Made by a program: the position numbers and the translations under genes | DNA from: Leptogranulimonas caecicola | GTDB taxonomy: Bacteria > Actinomycetota > Coriobacteriia > Coriobacteriales > Atopobiaceae | DNA length: 64,000 nt | Assembly: GCF_023168405.1 (NCBI RefSeq) | Contig: NZ_AP025285.1 | Span: forward strand, 434,001-498,000 | Reading direction: 5' to 3' | Shown: in pieces, positions 2,809 to 32,080 of the stretch | Numbering within the stretch: position 1 is the stretch's first letter | How the letters are laid out: every line of letters starts with the position of its first letter | Notes under the pieces: generated by a model | The model's database searches: none | What the model was told of the DNA's origin: nothing | Seen by the model: only the letters and a program-made list of their open reading frames with translations

Positions 2809-5800
2809 ATGGACCAAGAAACACGCTCATCCGCAACCTGCGGCTTTACCTTATGGCTCTCTGGCTTTGCGAAACGGGTGGCTGTTGGCGCGCTTAGTGC
2901 CACGTTGGCACTTTCGTCATTGGCGGCGCTGCCACGGTGCGCAGAAGCGAACCCTTTGAGCGACCGGGCTCCGGTGACAGCCATGCGCGCCAATGAGCAA
3001 GAGGTGGAGCTTTTTATCAGGGCAGGTGCGGCAACGCCGGTGGACGGCCTTGCCAACACCTACAGCTTCCCCGACCTCAAGGTCACCACCGAGCCTGCCA
3101 ACACCAGGTTCCAGAGCATCACCGTGCAGTTCACCACCGGCATTTCTGCAAACGACGAGATCTATTTCAACTCTGCCCATCAGCAGAACAACAGCGAGGC
3201 GCTGCCTTCTGGCTTTGTGCGCTACAGCGGCAACAAGCATGGCAACCACTCTGTCAACTACACTCAGCAGGGTGGCGCCACTGCCGATCAATGGCAGGAC
3301 TTTCTCTCTCGCTACCTCACGGTGAGGCTGGCCGATTCCACCAACACCAAGGGCTTGAGGATCGTGGCCAGCCTGGCGCCTGTGTCTACCACTCGCGACT
3401 ATAACTCCTTGAACGGCCACTACTACGAGGCTGGTCCCGTGATTGCCTCGTGGACCCAAGCGATCGAAGAGGCTGAAAAGCATAGTTACATGGGTATGCA
3501 AGGCTACTTGGTGACGGTGACCAATCAGGCCGAGCAAGATTTTGTGTTCTCGTTGGTGAACACCGATACCTGGATCGGTGGGACCTGCGATGATGCGTAC
3601 ACCATGAAAACCAGCTCTTGGGCACGCAACTATCGCACCAACAACGTCGATTCTCCCACGCGTTGGTCTTCCACCAATACGTTCAGAAGCGGTGCTTACA
3701 GCGACTACTATTGGGTGACAGGTCCGGAAGCCGGCCTTATGATGGGCCAATGCTATAACAATCAAAATCGTAAACATGCCACAAACCCCGAGACGGGCGA
3801 GACCATGTATATGAACTGGGCTTCAGGACAGCCCGATGGTCCCGCAAGCACTTCGGAGCAATGGATGCAGCTAGCTGTCCATTCCGGAGGAGGCACGGGC
3901 GGCTTTTGGAACGATCTTCCCAATCAGTTCGGCAACATACGCTACATCATCGAATACGGCGGCATGCCGGACGACAGCGATGAAGAGGGCGGCGACGCCG
4001 GCGCCGAGGCCAAGGTGGATGTCTATGTAAAGGTAGATATCGTGGTGGATCCTACCGGTCGAACCATCACCACGGAAGCTGAAGATGCGGTGGTAGGTCA
4101 ACCGTTGGATATCAAGGAGAACGTCAACGGCGATCCAGAAGTCAAAACCCATATCATGGAGGACGCCGCCGAGACCGGCACCACGCCCGCTCAGGTGACT
4201 CGCACCTACAAGATAAAAGACCCCACATCTCCCGAAGCCGACGCACAAGGCTGGCGCGACCTCCATGAGGACGAGCTGACCGATAAGGGCGAGCCCTTCC
4301 ATGCAGGCAGTTACAAGGTGGTCTCCACCGCCAACTATCGCGAGGATGCCGCTGGCAATGCGCTTATGCCTTACGTCCCCGGCGAAGCCACCTTCACCAT
4401 CAAGCCCAAGCCTATCGATGTGACTCAGCCAGCCTCCAAGCCAGACGATCCCACACAGCCCGACGCAACCCAGGGCTTCGAGACTGCCGATCCTGCAACC
4501 GGCGATCCGTTGGCTGTGGCAGGCCGCTGCTGGTCCAAAGTTTATGACGGCACTCCCTACGTGGCCAAAGACCAGGTGTCTTTGGCAGACCAGCTTGTTG
4601 AAGGCGCCTCTGCATGGCTTGCTTTCGATCGCGCAGAGTATGCTTCCAAAGATGCGGGATCTTGCGATCTGGTGCTCTATAGCCCGCAGATCCAGGGCCC
4701 TCATGCGGCCGACTACCGGCTCACCGGCCTTGCCAGCGACGGAACGCTCACAGTAAAAGGGGAGATTGTTTCTCGGCCTTTGGTTGTCACCGCCCGTTGG
4801 TTTGAAGACGCAGAGGCCAACCCCTCCACCTGGGTGCGCGACGTGGCCTTCAGAGATCCGGCTCACCCAGACGCGCCTGTGGCTGCCAACAACGATGCAA
4901 CGGAGTTCGACGCTTCGGCTGTTACCCAGAGTAAGGCAGACAGCGCCAACCACACCTGGCCGGTAGCCTGGCCTGCCTCTATGCTGGCTCCTGGGGACAG
5001 GTTGGACCAGGTGTTGGGCGATGCCAGCTATGAAGCGCAAACTGCAGGGGGCTTGCGCCTCAACGTCGAGCGTCCTCAGCGGGGCACCTATACTCTGAGC
5101 CTAAGCTATAGCGGGGTCGCATCGGTCATTGAGGGCGGTCCGCTCCTGAGCCAGGACGGAAATTATCAGGTGACGCTGGTGCCTGACACTCTCACGGTGA
5201 CTGACCGCATCACGGTAGACCTTACCGAGAAAGACCCCATTGCCATCCTAGAGCCCGTGAAGCCATCGAAGCCTGCCCCCAAACCGGTGACTCCCCAAGA
5301 CTTTGCCAAGATCGTCGAAGACACCTTTGGCCCTGATGGCCCGTCGCCTACAGGCGGCAAGCTGCCAGAGATGCCTGATGGTGTGGAGCCTCAGGTGATC
5401 ATTAAAAAAGGCAATCAGCCGGTGGACGAGATCGACCCTTCCAAGCCTGGCGACTACACCGTTACCGTGACCTATCCCAGCTCGGACGGTACCGACTATA
5501 TCGCCCATATCGACTATGAGGTCAAAGCCGATCCCACTCCTGATGAGCAGTGTCAGTTCTACCAAGTGACCACTCGCTTGGAGGGGGCCATAGAGGGGGC
5601 GTCGATCACCCCTACCAAGACGTTGGCCGCAGGCTCCAGCCACAAGGTGTCCTGGCAGCCTGGCCCCGATAGCTACGTGGTCTCTGTAGAGGTGGACGGC
5701 AAGGTCCTTAAAGATACGGCCACCTCGTGGACCTTCGAGGATTTGGCGGCTCATCACCAGGTGACGGTCACCTTGGCTCAAAATCCCGTTTTGCCTGGAG

Positions 5801-7503
5801 GATTCACCTATGGCCATTACACCGTGACGGTGAACAGCTATGGCCAAGGCGCCCAGGTGAGCCCTTCGCAGACCTATGTGCCCGGAAGCGACGCCCAGGC
5901 CAGCTGGGCGGCCAAAGAGGGTTATCAAATCAGCGCCGTGTGGGTTGACGGCGTGCAGCTCACTGCGGACCAATGTGCTGCAGGAGCTGCGAGCTTTCCC
6001 TCCATTGGCGCGAACCATGTAGTGGACGTCTACACCTGCAAAGCCGACGGCACCTCTGCCCAATCTCCTGACGACCTCAAGGTCACCACTCAGATCAAAG
6101 GCGGCCCCGGCACCATCACCGGAGGCGCCACGGTAACTCAAGGCGGCTCTTACCATGTGGCTTGGGAACCCGTCATCCAAACCACGCCCGTGGTAACAGA
6201 CCCTGCCTATGCGGTCTATGAAGTGAAAAGCGTTGAAGTGAACGGCGCTGAGGCCGCAGGCACTGCCGATCGTGAGATGCAGCTCGACAACATCAAAGAG
6301 AACAAGAACGTGGTGGTTACGGTGAGGCCGGTGGTCTATCACGTGAACGTGCAGTCCTACGGGCCTGGCACCGCGTCGGCATCGCGCACGCTTTATAAAG
6401 GCCAGGGCTATTTAGACATCGCCGGCACGCCGCAGGATGGGGCGCGCATCACCTATATCGAGATAGACGGCGAAGTGGTCTTGGACGAGAAAGCCGGCAT
6501 CACGCCTTCGGCGCTGAAGGCTGCGGGCTTCTCGGCGGGAGCCTTTAGCCAGGTGCGTGCCGCTGCCCCTCAATTCCCGGCCCCTGTGAAACATCAGCGT
6601 CAAGCCAACGGCGCCAAGTTGGACCTGGGCTTTGAGGGCATCGACCAGGACCATGTGGTGAAAGTGCTCTTTGCCAAAGAGGGGGAGGATCCTCTCAACG
6701 ACGAGGACGTTCATGACAGCGGCTTGATAGGGGTTACTGCCGGCGTCGAGGGCGGCCCGGGCAGCATCGAGGTGGATCAGCCGGCAGACCCAGGCACTCC
6801 GCCTCATCCCGGCTATGTGGACCCGACAAAAGAGGTGCCTGTGGCTTGGGAGCTCCCCGACGGCTATAGGCCGCTCGAGCTTGTGGTGGGCGAACAGCGG
6901 ATCCCCCTGGACCCTGATGCGACCTCAACAACCATTCCTGCAGACCTGCTCAAAGAGGGCGACCACATCTCGTTGGTGGTGGAGAAGCGCGCCGCAGACG
7001 ACGATAAGACGCACCCAAGGCAGCAAACCCCGCCTGCGTCCGAGAAGCTGCGCATCGATACCTCGCTGGCGGGCGGATTGGGTTCCATCAGCGCAGGCGC
7101 CCAGGTCGACCGCCATGGATCCTATACCGTCACCTGGTCTGCCGAGCCTGGCTATCGAGTGGCCAAAGTCCTGGTAGATGGCATTGAGCGCCCCGATCTC
7201 CTAGAGGCGTTCAGCTACACCTTCGAAGACGTGGGCGAGCACCATTCGGTGGCAGTGGAACTGGAGGCTGTCCCGGCCGATCCTCCTGCCGAGAAAGACC
7301 CCGCTCCTTCAGGCGACGACGCCGCACCGGGATCTTCTGCCGCCAAGCCGACGGACGATCGGCTCGTAGCTCGCCAAGAAGCGGACTCTCGAATTATGCC
7401 TGCCACAGGCGACGAAGCGTCGGGGCTGCCAGGCATCATGATCGCGGGCGCCCTGCTGCTCATGGTAGGCTGGCTTACCCTGAGCCGCCGGTGGCAAAGC
7501 TGA
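2809..7503 (+). CDS. Large sortase-anchored surface protein with C-type-lectin-like domain (adhesin A)
   Basis: About 1,564 residues. A basic, hydrophobic signal segment ends near residue 45. Residues about 200-385 resemble a C-type lectin domain (YMGMQGYLVTVT, WIGGTCDDAY, FWNDLPN, YIIEYGGM). Next come a YDG-like segment (CWSKVYDGTPY, near 570) and roughly six beta-rich repeats of 80-90 residues from about 915 on, each with a pattern like GGxGxI...YxVxWxxxxGYxVxxVxVDG. The C terminus has an MPATGD sorting signal, a hydrophobic helix and the basic tail RRWQS. ATG 2809 is chosen because of GGGAAGAGG just upstream and because the signal sequence starts there. It is a clear full-length paralogue of adhesin B at 26876-31920. 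Probable cell-wall-attached adhesin; ligand unknown. Confidence 0.88.
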   Translation: MDQETRSSATCGFTLWLSGFAKRVAVGALSATLALSSLAALPRCAEANPLSDRAPVTAMRANEQEVELFIRAGAATPVDGLANTYSFPDLKVTTEPANTRFQSITVQFTTGISANDEIYFNSAHQQNNSEALPSGFVRYSGNKHGNHSVNYTQQGGATADQWQDFLSRYLTVRLADSTNTKGLRIVASLAPVSTTRDYNSLNGHYYEAGPVIASWTQAIEEAEKHSYMGMQGYLVTVTNQAEQDFVFSLVNTDTWIGGTCDDAYTMKTSSWARNYRTNNVDSPTRWSSTNTFRSGAYSDYYWVTGPEAGLMMGQCYNNQNRKHATNPETGETMYMNWASGQPDGPASTSEQWMQLAVHSGGGTGGFWNDLPNQFGNIRYIIEYGGMPDDSDEEGGDAGAEAKVDVYVKVDIVVDPTGRTITTEAEDAVVGQPLDIKENVNGDPEVKTHIMEDAAETGTTPAQVTRTYKIKDPTSPEADAQGWRDLHEDELTDKGEPFHAGSYKVVSTANYREDAAGNALMPYVPGEATFTIKPKPIDVTQPASKPDDPTQPDATQGFETADPATGDPLAVAGRCWSKVYDGTPYVAKDQVSLADQLVEGASAWLAFDRAEYASKDAGSCDLVLYSPQIQGPHAADYRLTGLASDGTLTVKGEIVSRPLVVTARWFEDAEANPSTWVRDVAFRDPAHPDAPVAANNDATEFDASAVTQSKADSANHTWPVAWPASMLAPGDRLDQVLGDASYEAQTAGGLRLNVERPQRGTYTLSLSYSGVASVIEGGPLLSQDGNYQVTLVPDTLTVTDRITVDLTEKDPIAILEPVKPSKPAPKPVTPQDFAKIVEDTFGPDGPSPTGGKLPEMPDGVEPQVIIKKGNQPVDEIDPSKPGDYTVTVTYPSSDGTDYIAHIDYEVKADPTPDEQCQFYQVTTRLEGAIEGASITPTKTLAAGSSHKVSWQPGPDSYVVSVEVDGKVLKDTATSWTFEDLAAHHQVTVTLAQNPVLPGGFTYGHYTVTVNSYGQGAQVSPSQTYVPGSDAQASWAAKEGYQISAVWVDGVQLTADQCAAGAASFPSIGANHVVDVYTCKADGTSAQSPDDLKVTTQIKGGPGTITGGATVTQGGSYHVAWEPVIQTTPVVTDPAYAVYEVKSVEVNGAEAAGTADREMQLDNIKENKNVVVTVRPVVYHVNVQSYGPGTASASRTLYKGQGYLDIAGTPQDGARITYIEIDGEVVLDEKAGITPSALKAAGFSAGAFSQVRAAAPQFPAPVKHQRQANGAKLDLGFEGIDQDHVVKVLFAKEGEDPLNDEDVHDSGLIGVTAGVEGGPGSIEVDQPADPGTPPHPGYVDPTKEVPVAWELPDGYRPLELVVGEQRIPLDPDATSTTIPADLLKEGDHISLVVEKRAADDDKTHPRQQTPPASEKLRIDTSLAGGLGSISAGAQVDRHGSYTVTWSAEPGYRVAKVLVDGIERPDLLEAFSYTFEDVGEHHSVAVELEAVPADPPAEKDPAPSGDDAAPGSSAAKPTDDRLVARQEADSRIMPATGDEASGLPGIMIAGALLLMVGWLTLSRRWQS

Positions 7504-15070: not shown

Positions 15071-15079
15071 GGGGGGGGG
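15071..15079. repeat. G9 homopolymer between lytTR and DUF3021
   Basis: Nine consecutive G on the plus strand (C9 in the transcript) lie 53 bp before the DUF3021 start and 28 bp after the lytTR stop. Long G/C tracts are classical slippage sites; here it is noncoding, so any effect would be on leader structure or spacing. Confidence 0.9.
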
Positions 15080-26835: not shown

Positions 26836-28291
26836 TGTGGTCATAGGCGAGACCGTGGCGTTGCGCTATGGGTGTCTAGGCGTCTTTGCGTATCAGGCGC
26901 ACCAGTATCAGCGCCATGAGGGCGGTGGCGGCTGCAGCGACGCTTAAGAGGGGAGCCACCCAGGAGGTGGTGTCGCCGGTGGCGGGCATCCCGGAGCTGG
27001 GCTGCGGGGTGATGAGCACGCGAGTGTTGCCAGGAGCCGGGGTATCGGGGTTGGCAGGTGCAGGATCGGCGGGGGCTGGTCGAGGTTGAGGCTCCGGCTC
27101 AGGATCCGGGTCTGCCTCCAGCTCCACCTGCACGGTGTGGGGGCCGTCGATGTAGCTAAAGGTCACGTGATCGGTGGCCAGAAGCGACGTGAGCTCCACG
27201 CCGTCCACCAGCACGCGAGCCACGTGGTAGCCAGGCTCTGCCTTCCAGCTCACGGTGTAGGTGCCGCCTTCGGCTATCTCGGCGCTGGAGCTCACCTGGC
27301 CCAAGCCGCCCGTGACCGAGGTGGCGATGTTGAACATCTTCCCCTCTTGCTTGGGGGCTGCTTGCTGCTGGACGGGGACTTCCTCGTCGTTGCCCTTGGA
27401 GGATTTCTCCACCACCAAGGTGATAGGGGTGTCGCCCGCGGGGTTGATGACGCCGCCGGGGACGTCGGCGGGATCTACCACCACATAGCCGCGCTCGATG
27501 TCCTCAGGGGTGAGCTCGATCTCGTGATGGGGGCCGTTCGGGTCGCCCACCACGACCTTGGCAGGAACGTTGCCGTCGGGGATGTTCTCCCACTTGACCA
27601 CGATGGGCTGGGTGGGATCCACAGGGGCGCCAGGAGTGCCGGGAGCAGGATCGCTGCCAGGATCGGGATTGGTTACTTCTACCTTGCCCGAAGACCCCTC
27701 CACCTTGGGCGTCACCGTGGGAGTGGAGTCCTTGGCGTCGTCAGAGTCCTTGGGTGCGTAAGGCTCGCTATTCTTGGCAAAGTACACCTCGACTCGATGG
27801 TTGTGCTGCACGCCCTCAAAGCTGTAGTTGGCGGTGGAGCTGTTGATCTCGCCGGCTGCCTGGGTCTCTTGTGGGAAGACCGGAGTCTGGCTGCCTGCAC
27901 GGTCGGCTGCCTGGAAGAGGGCGGCGCCGGCGGGACGAGCCATCTGAGCCACAAAGGACGCACCTCCCTCATAGCGGGCTGCCGAGAAGGACGCATCCTC
28001 AGAAGCAGCAGACTCACTGGTGGGCTCGACGGTTTCCGAGGTTGCTTCAGGCACGGTAGCCTCTGCCTCAGGAGATGGGGTCTCATCGGCTGCGCCGGCA
28101 AGCTCGGAGCTCTGGGGCTCTTGGGGCGCCAGATCCAAAGCCTCAGCCACGGCGGTGTGGTTCTCGGCAGCCTGAGCCACCTCGACGGCGGCTTGAGCAG
28201 TGACAGACGCTGCTGCGGTGTCGTCGCTGGTGGGGGTCTCGGTGGGCGCAGCGGCTTTGAGCTCAGGGTCGGCTGCGGGATCGGGGACGAC

Positions 28292-28297
28292 GGGGGG
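28292..28297. other. C6/G6 tract at the second frame break of adhesin B
   Basis: The coding strand reads GAA GCC CCC CGT and meets a stop 30 bases on. With five C it reads GAA GCC CCC GTC GTC CCC GAT and joins the frame encoding the C-terminal repeats and anchor. The adhesin A paralogue is continuous over the matching region. Confidence 0.8.
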
Positions 28298-31200
28298 CTT
28301 CCGGCTGGGGCTTGGAAGGATCGTAGGCGGGAGCGTCGTAGACCGTGGTGCCGTCCACCACTACGCGCACGATGCGGCTGTCCTCGTTGGGGGTGCCCAA
28401 GACGTCGCGGTAGCTCTGGCCCTTGAAGAGGGTGCGGTGGTTGGAGACCGTACCGGCGCCTCCGTTGACCGAGTAGCCGTAGATATTCACGTTGTAGAGC
28501 ACCGGACGCATGGAGACCACCACGTTCTTGTGCTCGTTGATGTTGTCCAAAGTAAGGCTGGTGTCGCTGGCGCCGGCGCTGGGCACGCCGTTCACGGTGA
28601 CGCCGGAGACTTCCCACACGCCGTAGGAGGGATCCTCGGTGTCAGGGATGGGTTGGATTACCGTGTCCCAGGCCACCGAGTAGTTGGCACCGGGAGCCAC
28701 TGTGGAGCCGCCGGTGATGGTGCCGGGGCCGTTTACCACCTTGGTGGACACCATGTAGTCGCGAGAGGTGACGTCCAGCAGTGCGTTTAAGGACTTGTAG
28801 CGGATGTCCACCACGTGATTGGCGGCGATGTCGTCAAAGATGTAGCTGCCGCTCTCGATCTGCTCGGGAGTGAGGGCGGTGGTCCCGTCGATGACGATCT
28901 CGCTTACCTTGAAGCCGGCAACGGGCTCCCACCACACGTTCACATCTTCGCCGCCCTCGACGGTTTGGGAGGGTGAGCACTCCAGCATCCCTTGGGTGCC
29001 GTAGCGGTTCACGGTGACGGTATACCAGCCGCGGGTAGCAGAGCCGCCTACCGAGGGCAGCGTGGCGACGGTCACCACCACTATGTGATTGGCATCCAAA
29101 TCCTCAAAGTCCACCGCATCGCCTGTGGGCTCGACGGTCTTGCCGTCGATGGTGACCTCGGAGACATAGCGGTTGAGGCCGGGAGTCCACGTGACCGAGT
29201 AGGACGAGCCTTCACCCAATGTGGCCGTGGGGGAGATGGAGCTGTCAGAGGCGATGGCGCCCCTCAGGCGGGTGGTGACGGTGAAGTAGCGGGTCTCAGG
29301 ATCGGTCTTGATAGGCTCTGGCTCCACCTTGTAGGTGATCTCCACGCGCACCTCGGGCTGGTCAGGGTCGGGATTGGGATAGGTGACCACCACAGTGTAG
29401 GTGCCAGGGTCATCAGGATCGATCTCGTCGACCTCCTGCTTGCCCTTGATGATCTCGATTTTGGGCTCCACGCCCTCGGGGATCTCGGGAATCGTGGGGG
29501 TGTCCGGTTTGGGGTCGTCATCAGGGTTGCCGCCCGGGTTGTCACCTGGGTTATCGCCGGGTTTACCACCGATAATATCTTCAACCTTTTTAAGAATGTC
29601 TTCTGGACCCACGGGATCGTCGCCGGGCTTCACGATGACGGGATCGCCGGGCTTGATGGGCTCAGGGTTGTCAGGATCCACTGGAGTGGGGTCGTTGCCG
29701 GGAGTCACTACCACGGTGGAAGGCTTGGGTTCCACCACCAGGGTAGTGGGAGCAACGGATACCAGGTAGTTGCCAACGAGGAACTTGCCGTCTACGGCAG
29801 AGACTTTATCACCGGAGAGCTGGGTGGAGACCTGATAGCTGCCGCGTACCGGAGACTTGAGATCCAGCTTGAGGCCGCCGGCAGTGGCAGCGGAGTGAGC
29901 AGGAGTCACCCCATTAAAGAGGCTTTGAGGATCGTCTTTATCGGCAGCTGCCAGCTGGTCGGTGGCGATCTCGAAGCTCTGGGCAGCCTCTTCCAAGCCT
30001 TCCTTGCCTGCACGCCAGGTCGTTATGGGGTCTTGGCCTTCTTGAGTTGCAAATGAGTAATAGGGGCTGATGGTGAGGGGCGCGGGCAGGATGGTGGCGG
30101 GGATGATGAGGTCGTAGGTCCCGTCTCCGTTGTCCTTGAGGTTAGCCAGGTTGTAGTTGGCAGCGTCTACGCCCTCGATACGCACGTTGTGCAAGGTGAG
30201 CTCGCGGGCGCCGGCATTGGCGTTGCTAAAGGCGGCAGAGTCAAAAGTCAGATGGGCGTCGCCCAGGCTCTCCACCAGCAGGTCGGAGAGGTCCAGCGAT
30301 GTGGGGCTATCAAAGGCGGTGGTGCCGTCGTAGGTCTTGGACCAGAAGCGGCCGGGAAGCGCAGAAGGATCAGAAGGCTTATCGGGGCTGGGCGCGGGGG
30401 AGTTGGGAGCCACATTGATGACCTTGGGCAAGATCTTGAACTCGGCAGAGCCAGGGGTGTAATCCTCGGCGGCCACGGTGTCGTCTGCATAGCGATAGGG
30501 GGCGCGAGATTCCACCTTGTAGGTGCCTACTTTGGTAGGCACGCCGTCGAGCGCCACCCAGTCCTTGCCCTGCTTTTGGTAGTAGGTGCGGGTCACAGGG
30601 GCGGGCTCTGTGCCAGTCTCCTTACCGTCTGTGCCAAAGAGGTGCAGCTTGACCTCGGGGTCGCCGTTGACGTTCTCGGAGACTTTGAGAGGCTCGCCTA
30701 CGCGCACGTTGTCGGCGCTGGTAGTGATGGTCTTGCCCTTGGGGTCGATGTCGATCTCCACCTTCACCACGATGTCCACGTTGGCGTCGCCACCACCGCC
30801 GGAGGTTGAAGGGTCATCGGAATCGCCCTCCATGCCGCCGTATTCAATGACATAGGCGGTGCAAGAGGTGTTGCCGTTGGCGAAGTCGTTCCAGAGGCCT
30901 GAGACAGACGAATAGAAGTGCATGCATTGCTCGCCGCTTGAATTGTTGGGTTCGTTGGGCGACCAATTGTTGTAGATGGTGGGGCTATTGTTGTTGAGAG
31001 GGTCAGGGGAAGGATCTGGGGCAGCTGTCGGGGTATTCAGGCCCCATGACACAAGCTTGCCGGCCTCTGGGCCGCACACCCAGAAATAGTAAGCTGCTGC
31101 AGGCATTGTGCTGGAGGGGATGGTAATGCCCTTGGAGGCATAGAAGTCCTTGTAGGTGTTCTTCACGGGCCCGGTGTAGGCGTCGAGGCAGGTGGCGCCC

Positions 31201-31875
31201 GTCCAGCAGTTCTCGCCGATCATGGTATAGACGTAGTCATGCTCTTTTTGGCTGGTAATGGTGACCAGGTAGCCCTGCATACCCATATAAGTCTTGCTCT
31301 GGGCTGCCTTGAATGCCGTTTCCCAAGAAGCGCCTGAGGCTTTCACCGTCTCATAGTAGTGCCCATTCAACGAGTTGTAGTCATAGAGGGACTGCACGGG
31401 CTCGAAGTTGGCGATCATTCGAATGCTCTTAGTGGTAGTGGCATCTGAGAGTGTGATGGTCATATGGTCGCGCAGGTACTGCTGCCACTCAGCAGCGGTT
31501 GCTCCCGATGCGCAGTTCACCGATTTGTTGCCGCGCTTGTTGCCGGCGAAGAGCTCGAACTTGCCCGAAGCGTCCACATTGATGGCATCCGTGGTGGTGA
31601 TGGCTGAGGTGAACTGCACCGTGATGGATTTTATGAGCCTGTCTGTGTTGCTCTCCACCGTGAGGTAGGGGAAGTACCAGGTGTTGGTATGGCCTTCCAC
31701 AGGCACGGCCGCTCCTGCCTTGATGGACAGCGTGGTGTCGTCGCCCGCGGTGGTGCTCGCGGTGACATCGTCTGCCGCCAATGCCACCGTGGGTGCAAAG
31801 GCCCCCACGGGCACCATAGAGAGCAGCAGCATCAAGCTCATGACCCACGCCGCTATGCGCGAAAGACGGCTGCAT

Positions 31876-31881
31876 CCCCCC
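31876..31881. other. C6/G6 tract at the first frame break of adhesin B
   Basis: From ATG 31920 the coding strand reads AGA GGG GGG ATG and leaves the signal-peptide frame. With five G it reads AGA GGG GGA TGC and continues CSRLSRIAAWVMSLMLLLS, a good signal peptide. The in-frame ATG at 31841 has no ribosome site and would lack the positive n-region. Confidence 0.8.
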
Positions 31882-32080
31882 TCTCTGGTGCGTCCTAGAC
31901 AGATGCGTGTGGTCGCTCATGGCCATCCCCTTCTCTCACGTAGCCTCGAGCCTAGGGCTGCCAAGAAACCCAGCCGCCTAAGATCGAAACCCCTAATTGC
32001 TAGAAAACCCAAGGTATAAGGCGTATTATGTCCACTGTATACATAAACCTGAAAGGTATCTGTAGGGTGAGTATAGCCAC

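Follow-up and report, generated by a model that had tools for sequence, protein, structure and literature searches.

The stretch of DNA analysed here, called the window throughout, comprises 64,000 nucleotides (nt) of Leptogranulimonas caecicola, positions 434001-498000 of a single-contig 2.0 Mb genome, and positions given below are those of the window unless stated otherwise. On its minus strand lies a gene that we call adhesin B, in which a reading of the frames finds two breaks, each located at a six-base run of G or C, and on its plus strand lies a comparison gene, paralogue A (Table 1). We consider it rather likely that adhesin B in this genome is a recently inactivated allele within a set of LPXTG-type genes that is losing members both in this lineage and in that of a sister species, a case of recent and recurrent loss of surface adhesins.

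The open reading frame (ORF) that opens at the ribosome-site start of adhesin B extends from 31926 to 31489 and departs from the signal-peptide frame past the first run, and the body ORF closes with a short off-frame tail at 28263, without an anchor. A sequence-only reading of the window had placed the breaks at these two tracts, proposed that one base fewer in each would restore the frame, and described paralogue A as intact. All three points are borne out: the sister genome is one base shorter at each tract and continuous across both, and paralogue A has both a signal peptide and an MPATGD anchor. The same reading held that the cell would make neither a properly exported nor an anchored protein. 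As the gene is written, its body product is indeed predicted to lose the anchor; failure of proper export is probable only, given an ATG at 31841 that lies in the body frame upstream of the hydrophobic stretch, albeit lacking basic residues and any evident ribosome site.

Table 1. Features of adhesin B and its paralogue in the window (aa, amino acids).
Feature	Position	Strand	Remark
Ribosome-site-like GAGAAGGGG and ATG starts ATGGCCATG (31926, 31920) of adhesin B	31915..31940	-	Nearly identical in sister
G6 run (C6 on plus strand), where start frame and signal-peptide frame diverge	31876..31881	-	Five bases in sister
Hydrophobic signal-peptide core MSLMLLLSMVPVGAFAPTVALAA, body frame of adhesin B	31773..31841	-	Judged by eye
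Body ORF of adhesin B, 1192 aa: N-terminal domain, C-type-lectin-like domain, YDG domain, repeats	28263..31841	-	Repeats by eye
Probable C-type-lectin-like domain, about aa 133-350 of body ORF	30792..31445	-	Pfam, Foldseek, structure model
C6 run (G6 on plus strand), where body frame and anchor frame diverge	28292..28297	-	One base fewer in sister, no such run
C-terminal piece of adhesin B in its own frame: Pro/Ala/Glu-rich stalk, one repeat, MPATGD sorting signal, membrane segment, basic tail	26876..28288	-	
Paralogue A, intact: signal peptide and MPATGD anchor in one frame	2809..7503	+	Comparison gene

By its predicted features adhesin B is a sortase-anchored surface protein of the LPXTG type whose parts stand in different frames as written, the signal peptide being judged by eye. 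The LPXTG_anchor model (TIGR01167) scores 15.5 bits on the C-terminal piece and 16.1 with its neighbours, a marginal pass of the 15.9 cut-off, and a sortase (PF04203) is found above cut-off in this genome and in the sister. The YDG domain is likewise above its Pfam cut-off (E 2.6e-7). A lectin-like fold is likely: Pfam Lectin_C reaches 16.3 bits, under its cut-off of 22.6, and a model of the 327 residues past the signal peptide (mean predicted local distance difference test, pLDDT, 62.6; predicted template modelling score, pTM, 0.51) has C-type lectins as its top five Foldseek matches in the PDB, the best at E 0.019 and none at E 0.001 or better. C-type lectins make up 20 of the 25 leading matches, if we include some that we take to be members of that class. 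In a profile scan of contigs, whose patterns were weakened by one alignment row in the wrong strand, 11 of 13 loci are distant relatives of the lectin-like part (28-32% identity), all of them in Bacteroidota by record titles. This architecture suggests that protein B would act as an adhesin.

A similarity search over 60 genomes, our own included, returned matches in three: this genome, one other of the same genus (represented by two genomes, again including our own), taken to be Olsenella sp. KGMB02461, which we call the sister, and one from another genus of the family (G022). In the last of these the homologue is a whole ORF of 1556 aa, which by its N-terminal sequence is assigned to paralogue A. 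Viral contigs were scanned once for conspecific copies of adhesin B, and the seven pattern-matching stretches obtained included no relative.

The adhesin B locus is 91.4% identical to that of the sister across 5498 aligned bases including flanks. Five indels separate the two sequences: three are multiples of three, and two are single bases located precisely at the two runs. In the sister, start, signal peptide, body and anchor share one frame of 1679 codons, interrupted by a sole internal stop, a TGA at codon 83, where the window copy has a tryptophan codon. With a stop in the sister and two slips here, neither genome therefore yields a complete adhesin B from its start, and the lesions differ. 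Substitutions sorted by codon phase around 28292-28297 give a coding signal on both sides of the run (peaks of 28 and 27 mismatches) that is in phase only in sister coordinates. The C-terminal pieces, 1413 nt in either genome, align without stop or indel, and about 1650 codons of the window copy are free of any further stop or out-of-frame indel.

Ratios of nonsynonymous to synonymous substitution (dN/dS) between the window copy and the sister were obtained from Nei-Gojobori counts with bootstrap intervals. Before the second run of adhesin B the ratio is 0.133 (95% interval 0.095-0.174, 1172 codons) and after it 0.368 (0.264-0.525, 470 codons); paralogue A has 0.135, and the median over 70 background genes is 0.08. 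The value before the second run suggests that adhesin B was therefore functional for most of the divergence between the two species, which we read as long functional evolution followed by recent loss. With the slips taken as assembled, the gene combines independent lesions in two lineages with purifying selection, as would a recent loss-of-function allele.

To place adhesin B among other LPXTG-type genes, both genomes were searched for LPXTG anchors, giving 26 matches, of which four without a partner were left out, one from this genome and three from the sister. The anchor model at E up to 1 matches all 14 control genomes, 9 above cut-off, and anchors were therefore combined with long ORFs. 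Twelve gene pairs, lettered A to L, were matched on position, length and ORF ends, the sister's copies of B and C lying outside the 26 matches and being located by similarity search. Pairs A, D, H, I, J, K and L look intact in both genomes, as judged for A by search and codon alignment, for D, J and K by ORF listing, for I by open-frame length and a partial listing, and for H and L by open-frame length alone. Broken genes number four of the 12 here (B, C, F and G) and three of the 12 in the sister (B, C and E). C (L076:3525-6227, L077:3610-8088) is broken in both, here by an out-of-frame loss of about 2 kb that separates the frames of signal peptide and body, and in the sister by a TAG at codon 62. 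E, which encodes 2226 aa here (L099), is off frame in the sister, where 8 bp are duplicated in tandem (L098, at about 6242 of the reverse complement). F encodes 2297 aa in the sister (L103) and is off frame here, with a net insertion of 23 bp within a diverged stretch (L102, at about 4163-4343 of the reverse complement), while G, of 1925 aa in the sister (L097), has lost about 4.4 kb here and is reduced to a remnant frame of 366 codons (L096:8506-9606).

For comparison with other genes, a gene was counted as broken if its longest ORF was under 85% of its partner's, the LPXTG counts being made by hand. This length rule flags four of the 12 LPXTG-type genes here and one of 12 in the sister, where it does not catch two early nonsense cases, against 5 of 127 and 3 of 142 control genes, respectively, the controls being drawn from one region with adhesins A and B left out. 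The difference (p 0.003 here, p 0.002 pooled) is suggestive of an enrichment of breakage among LPXTG-type genes.

Taken as a whole, this evidence is consistent with the following account. Adhesin B would encode a surface protein that is secreted, anchored by sortase and tipped by a probable lectin-like domain. Purifying selection would have maintained the gene through most of the period since the two species parted, until two one-base slips, each in a short G/C run of its own, moved first the start and then the anchor off the body frame. Both lineages would be losing large LPXTG-type proteins through lesions that are unrelated to one another: slips and nonsense codons, large deletions, one insertion and one short tandem duplication. 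The mixture of lesion types argues for recurrent loss of function and not for a dedicated slip switch. We infer that the slips are real rather than errors of assembly, and the cause, whether in culture or in the host, may be that these proteins are selected against or no longer required. The sequence-only reading had also offered a decaying gene as an explanation; plain long decay is contradicted by the dN/dS before the second run. The main evidence lay beyond that reading: the sister copy is likewise broken, by a nonsense codon, and several other LPXTG-type genes are broken in one genome or both. A broader proposal, which seems to us possible but doubtful, is that gut Coriobacteriia of this genus diversify their surface by repeatedly switching off members of a repertoire of giant LPXTG-type adhesins through any lesion available, be it a short-run slip, a nonsense codon, a tandem duplication or a deletion. 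Selection by host, phage or culture would then leave each isolate with a subset of its own, and the slip alleles would be slowly revertible.

Several points weigh against recent, recurrent adhesin loss. LPXTG-type genes are long targets, and against controls of at least 400 aa the pooled p rises to 0.01. Taken by itself, the sister shows no significant excess (p 0.28, or 0.49 with long controls), and a rough per-kilobase hand count weakens it further. F falls below the length limit narrowly (1913 of 2297 aa), and the LPXTG set was chosen for inspection after adhesin B had been seen. Within adhesin B, dN/dS is higher after the second run than before it (p 3e-5), which could mean that the anchor was lost somewhat earlier; paralogue A shows a weaker trend in the same direction (0.116 to 0.225, p 0.10), and the tail of adhesin B has no clear excess over that of paralogue A (p 0.15). 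Reversion at both runs is possible in principle. Finally, both slips are of the classic homopolymer error type and are known from the assembled sequence alone, and are hence unproven.

Slow reversible silencing, in which adhesin B is a contingency locus turned off and occasionally on again by slips in short G/C runs, we regard as unlikely. The lesions of adhesin B are one-base homopolymer changes, its body appears to have been selected until recently, and there are precedents for short runs in the inlA change from A6 to A7 (PMC2831843) and in a meningococcal C5/C6 run (PMC5084427). Six bases are short, however, and runs of at least six G or C are fewer in adhesin B than a first-order Markov model predicts (2 observed, 6.9 expected), a count on which evolved enrichment of runs in the gene is rejected. 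The second site has no run in the sister, whose copy is off by way of a nonsense codon, both slips here would need to revert, and longer runs in the same genome, such as a C11 run in an MmeI-type gene, fit phase variation better. With its six-base runs adhesin B lacks the long or enriched simple repeat of a phase-variable gene, and phase variation by slippage, as first suggested from the sequence, finds no support in run length, enrichment or conservation, slow reversion aside.

That the true adhesin B is intact, and that the assembly is wrong at one or both homopolymer runs, is in our estimation distinctly unlikely, in spite of the type of the lesions and their sole basis in the assembly. The alignment of the two genomes covers 239,029 of 340,000 bases, and 14 six-base coding G/C runs were tested, 13 in aligned ORFs of at least 150 aa (some perhaps spurious) together with the N-terminal run of adhesin B. 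Only the two runs of adhesin B contain an indel, and the other 12 have none. Among the 13 in aligned ORFs an indel lies at the run in two, one in adhesin B and one at 635989, where the run keeps its length and an adjoining base is missing. Five-base coding G/C runs have an indel in 2 of 236 cases, both in poorly aligned stretches, and the sole nine-base run also has one in such a stretch. By simple arithmetic, two random indels among 14 runs would both fall in adhesin B with a chance of 1/91; that both G/C runs of one single gene are off frame exceeds chance expectation, the run composition itself being ordinary.

The wider census points the same way. Isolated frame-changing indels between the two genomes number 70, and among the roughly 68 listed, 24 of them under stricter limits and 44 under looser ones, only that at 28292-28297 interrupts a long open frame of this genome and has a clear codon-phase signal to either side. 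At 501208 a weaker signal implicates this genome, at a place where neither genome has a frame of more than 143 codons; 666300 and 573208 lie within ORFs that are open here and absent or shorter in the sister, and some of the other indels sit at gene junctions. A test for broken genes, which disregards the outer 6% of each gene, finds 121 of 129 testable sister genes unbroken here, with 8 flagged including adhesin B, and 135 of 144 testable genes of this genome unbroken in the sister, with 9 flagged; at least two of the flagged genes are whole ORFs in both genomes according to the ORF lists. Because the other six-base runs are free of inside indels and broken genes are rare across the aligned 239 kb, a general homopolymer problem is unlikely, and with it the sequencing error that had been put forward as one explanation. 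Nor does a read error of this kind account for the 2 and 4.4 kb missing from other LPXTG-type genes.

A long-standing pseudogene in neutral decay is very improbable. Adhesin B does carry two lesions and a raised dN/dS after the second run, but dN/dS is low before that run, the roughly 1650 codons hold no more stops or out-of-frame indels, and the other three indels are all multiples of three. Programmed +1 ribosomal frameshifting or RNA polymerase slippage that would join the frames of adhesin B is extremely unlikely: CCC-C and GGG-G motifs are present at the two sites, but the sister, the one relative compared, lacks CCC-C at the second site and has a single frame there, so that the slippery site and frame arrangement are not conserved and the +1 shifting once proposed at CCC-C is rejected, and moreover two serial shifts would be required and paralogue A is in one frame.

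Runs of 9-12 G or C are found elsewhere in this genome. A C11 run at L082:4394-4404 (G000:C1:1332393-1332403) marks the place at which an MmeI-type restriction-modification gene divides into two frames of 653 and 352 aa, the first carrying the N-terminal domain, the helicase-spacer domain and most of the methyltransferase domain, and the second the remainder of the methyltransferase along with the target recognition and C-terminal domains. The sister has only a weak match to this gene (30%, E 7.8e-4), and by its sequence the run is a strong candidate for phase variation. The longest homopolymer of the window is a G9 run at 15071-15079, absent from the sister. Two further runs lie in apparently intergenic DNA: G12 at L083:5576-5587 (G000:C1:142576-142587), and C11 at L030:5246-5256, some 70 bases ahead of a 566-aa ORF with a signal-peptide-like start in the sister.

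If recent, recurrent loss of adhesins is the correct explanation, its parallel occurrence in two sister species would imply that these giant surface proteins are costly or that selection on them, be it in culture or in the gut, is strong and changing, and single reference genomes would understate the adhesin repertoire of a species. As to protein type, adhesin B resembles the LPXTG-type surface proteins with YDG/MBG domains and repeat stalks in its YDG domain, its MPATGD anchor, the sortase of its genome and its signal peptide (by eye), and differs from them by a probable lectin-like region with distant relatives in Bacteroidota. The poly-G/C contingency loci of Neisseria, Helicobacter and Cutibacterium acnes, some of which encode surface proteins, are likewise put off frame by changes in run length (PMC4746626, PMC5084427). 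The former counts 54 variable runs in C. acnes, nearly all of G/C and accumulating slowly, and the latter describes a meningococcal run that is C5 or C6 among strains, so that short runs can vary. By contrast, the runs of adhesin B are of six bases and not enriched, the second is not common to the sister, and one genome per species is compared.

The closest precedent is inlA of Listeria monocytogenes, whose product is LPXTG-anchored and which, like adhesin B, is a surface-protein gene lost both by slips in a short run and by premature stops. According to PMC2831843, it has been silenced at least twice when a short homopolymer in its 5' part changed by one base, and reversal of the short-run slip was measured at about 5.5e-7; PMC12427964 describes silencing through premature stop codons as well. 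Adhesin B differs from inlA in that the comparison spans two genomes, the runs are of G/C, one gene carries two slips and the case is known from sequence alone.

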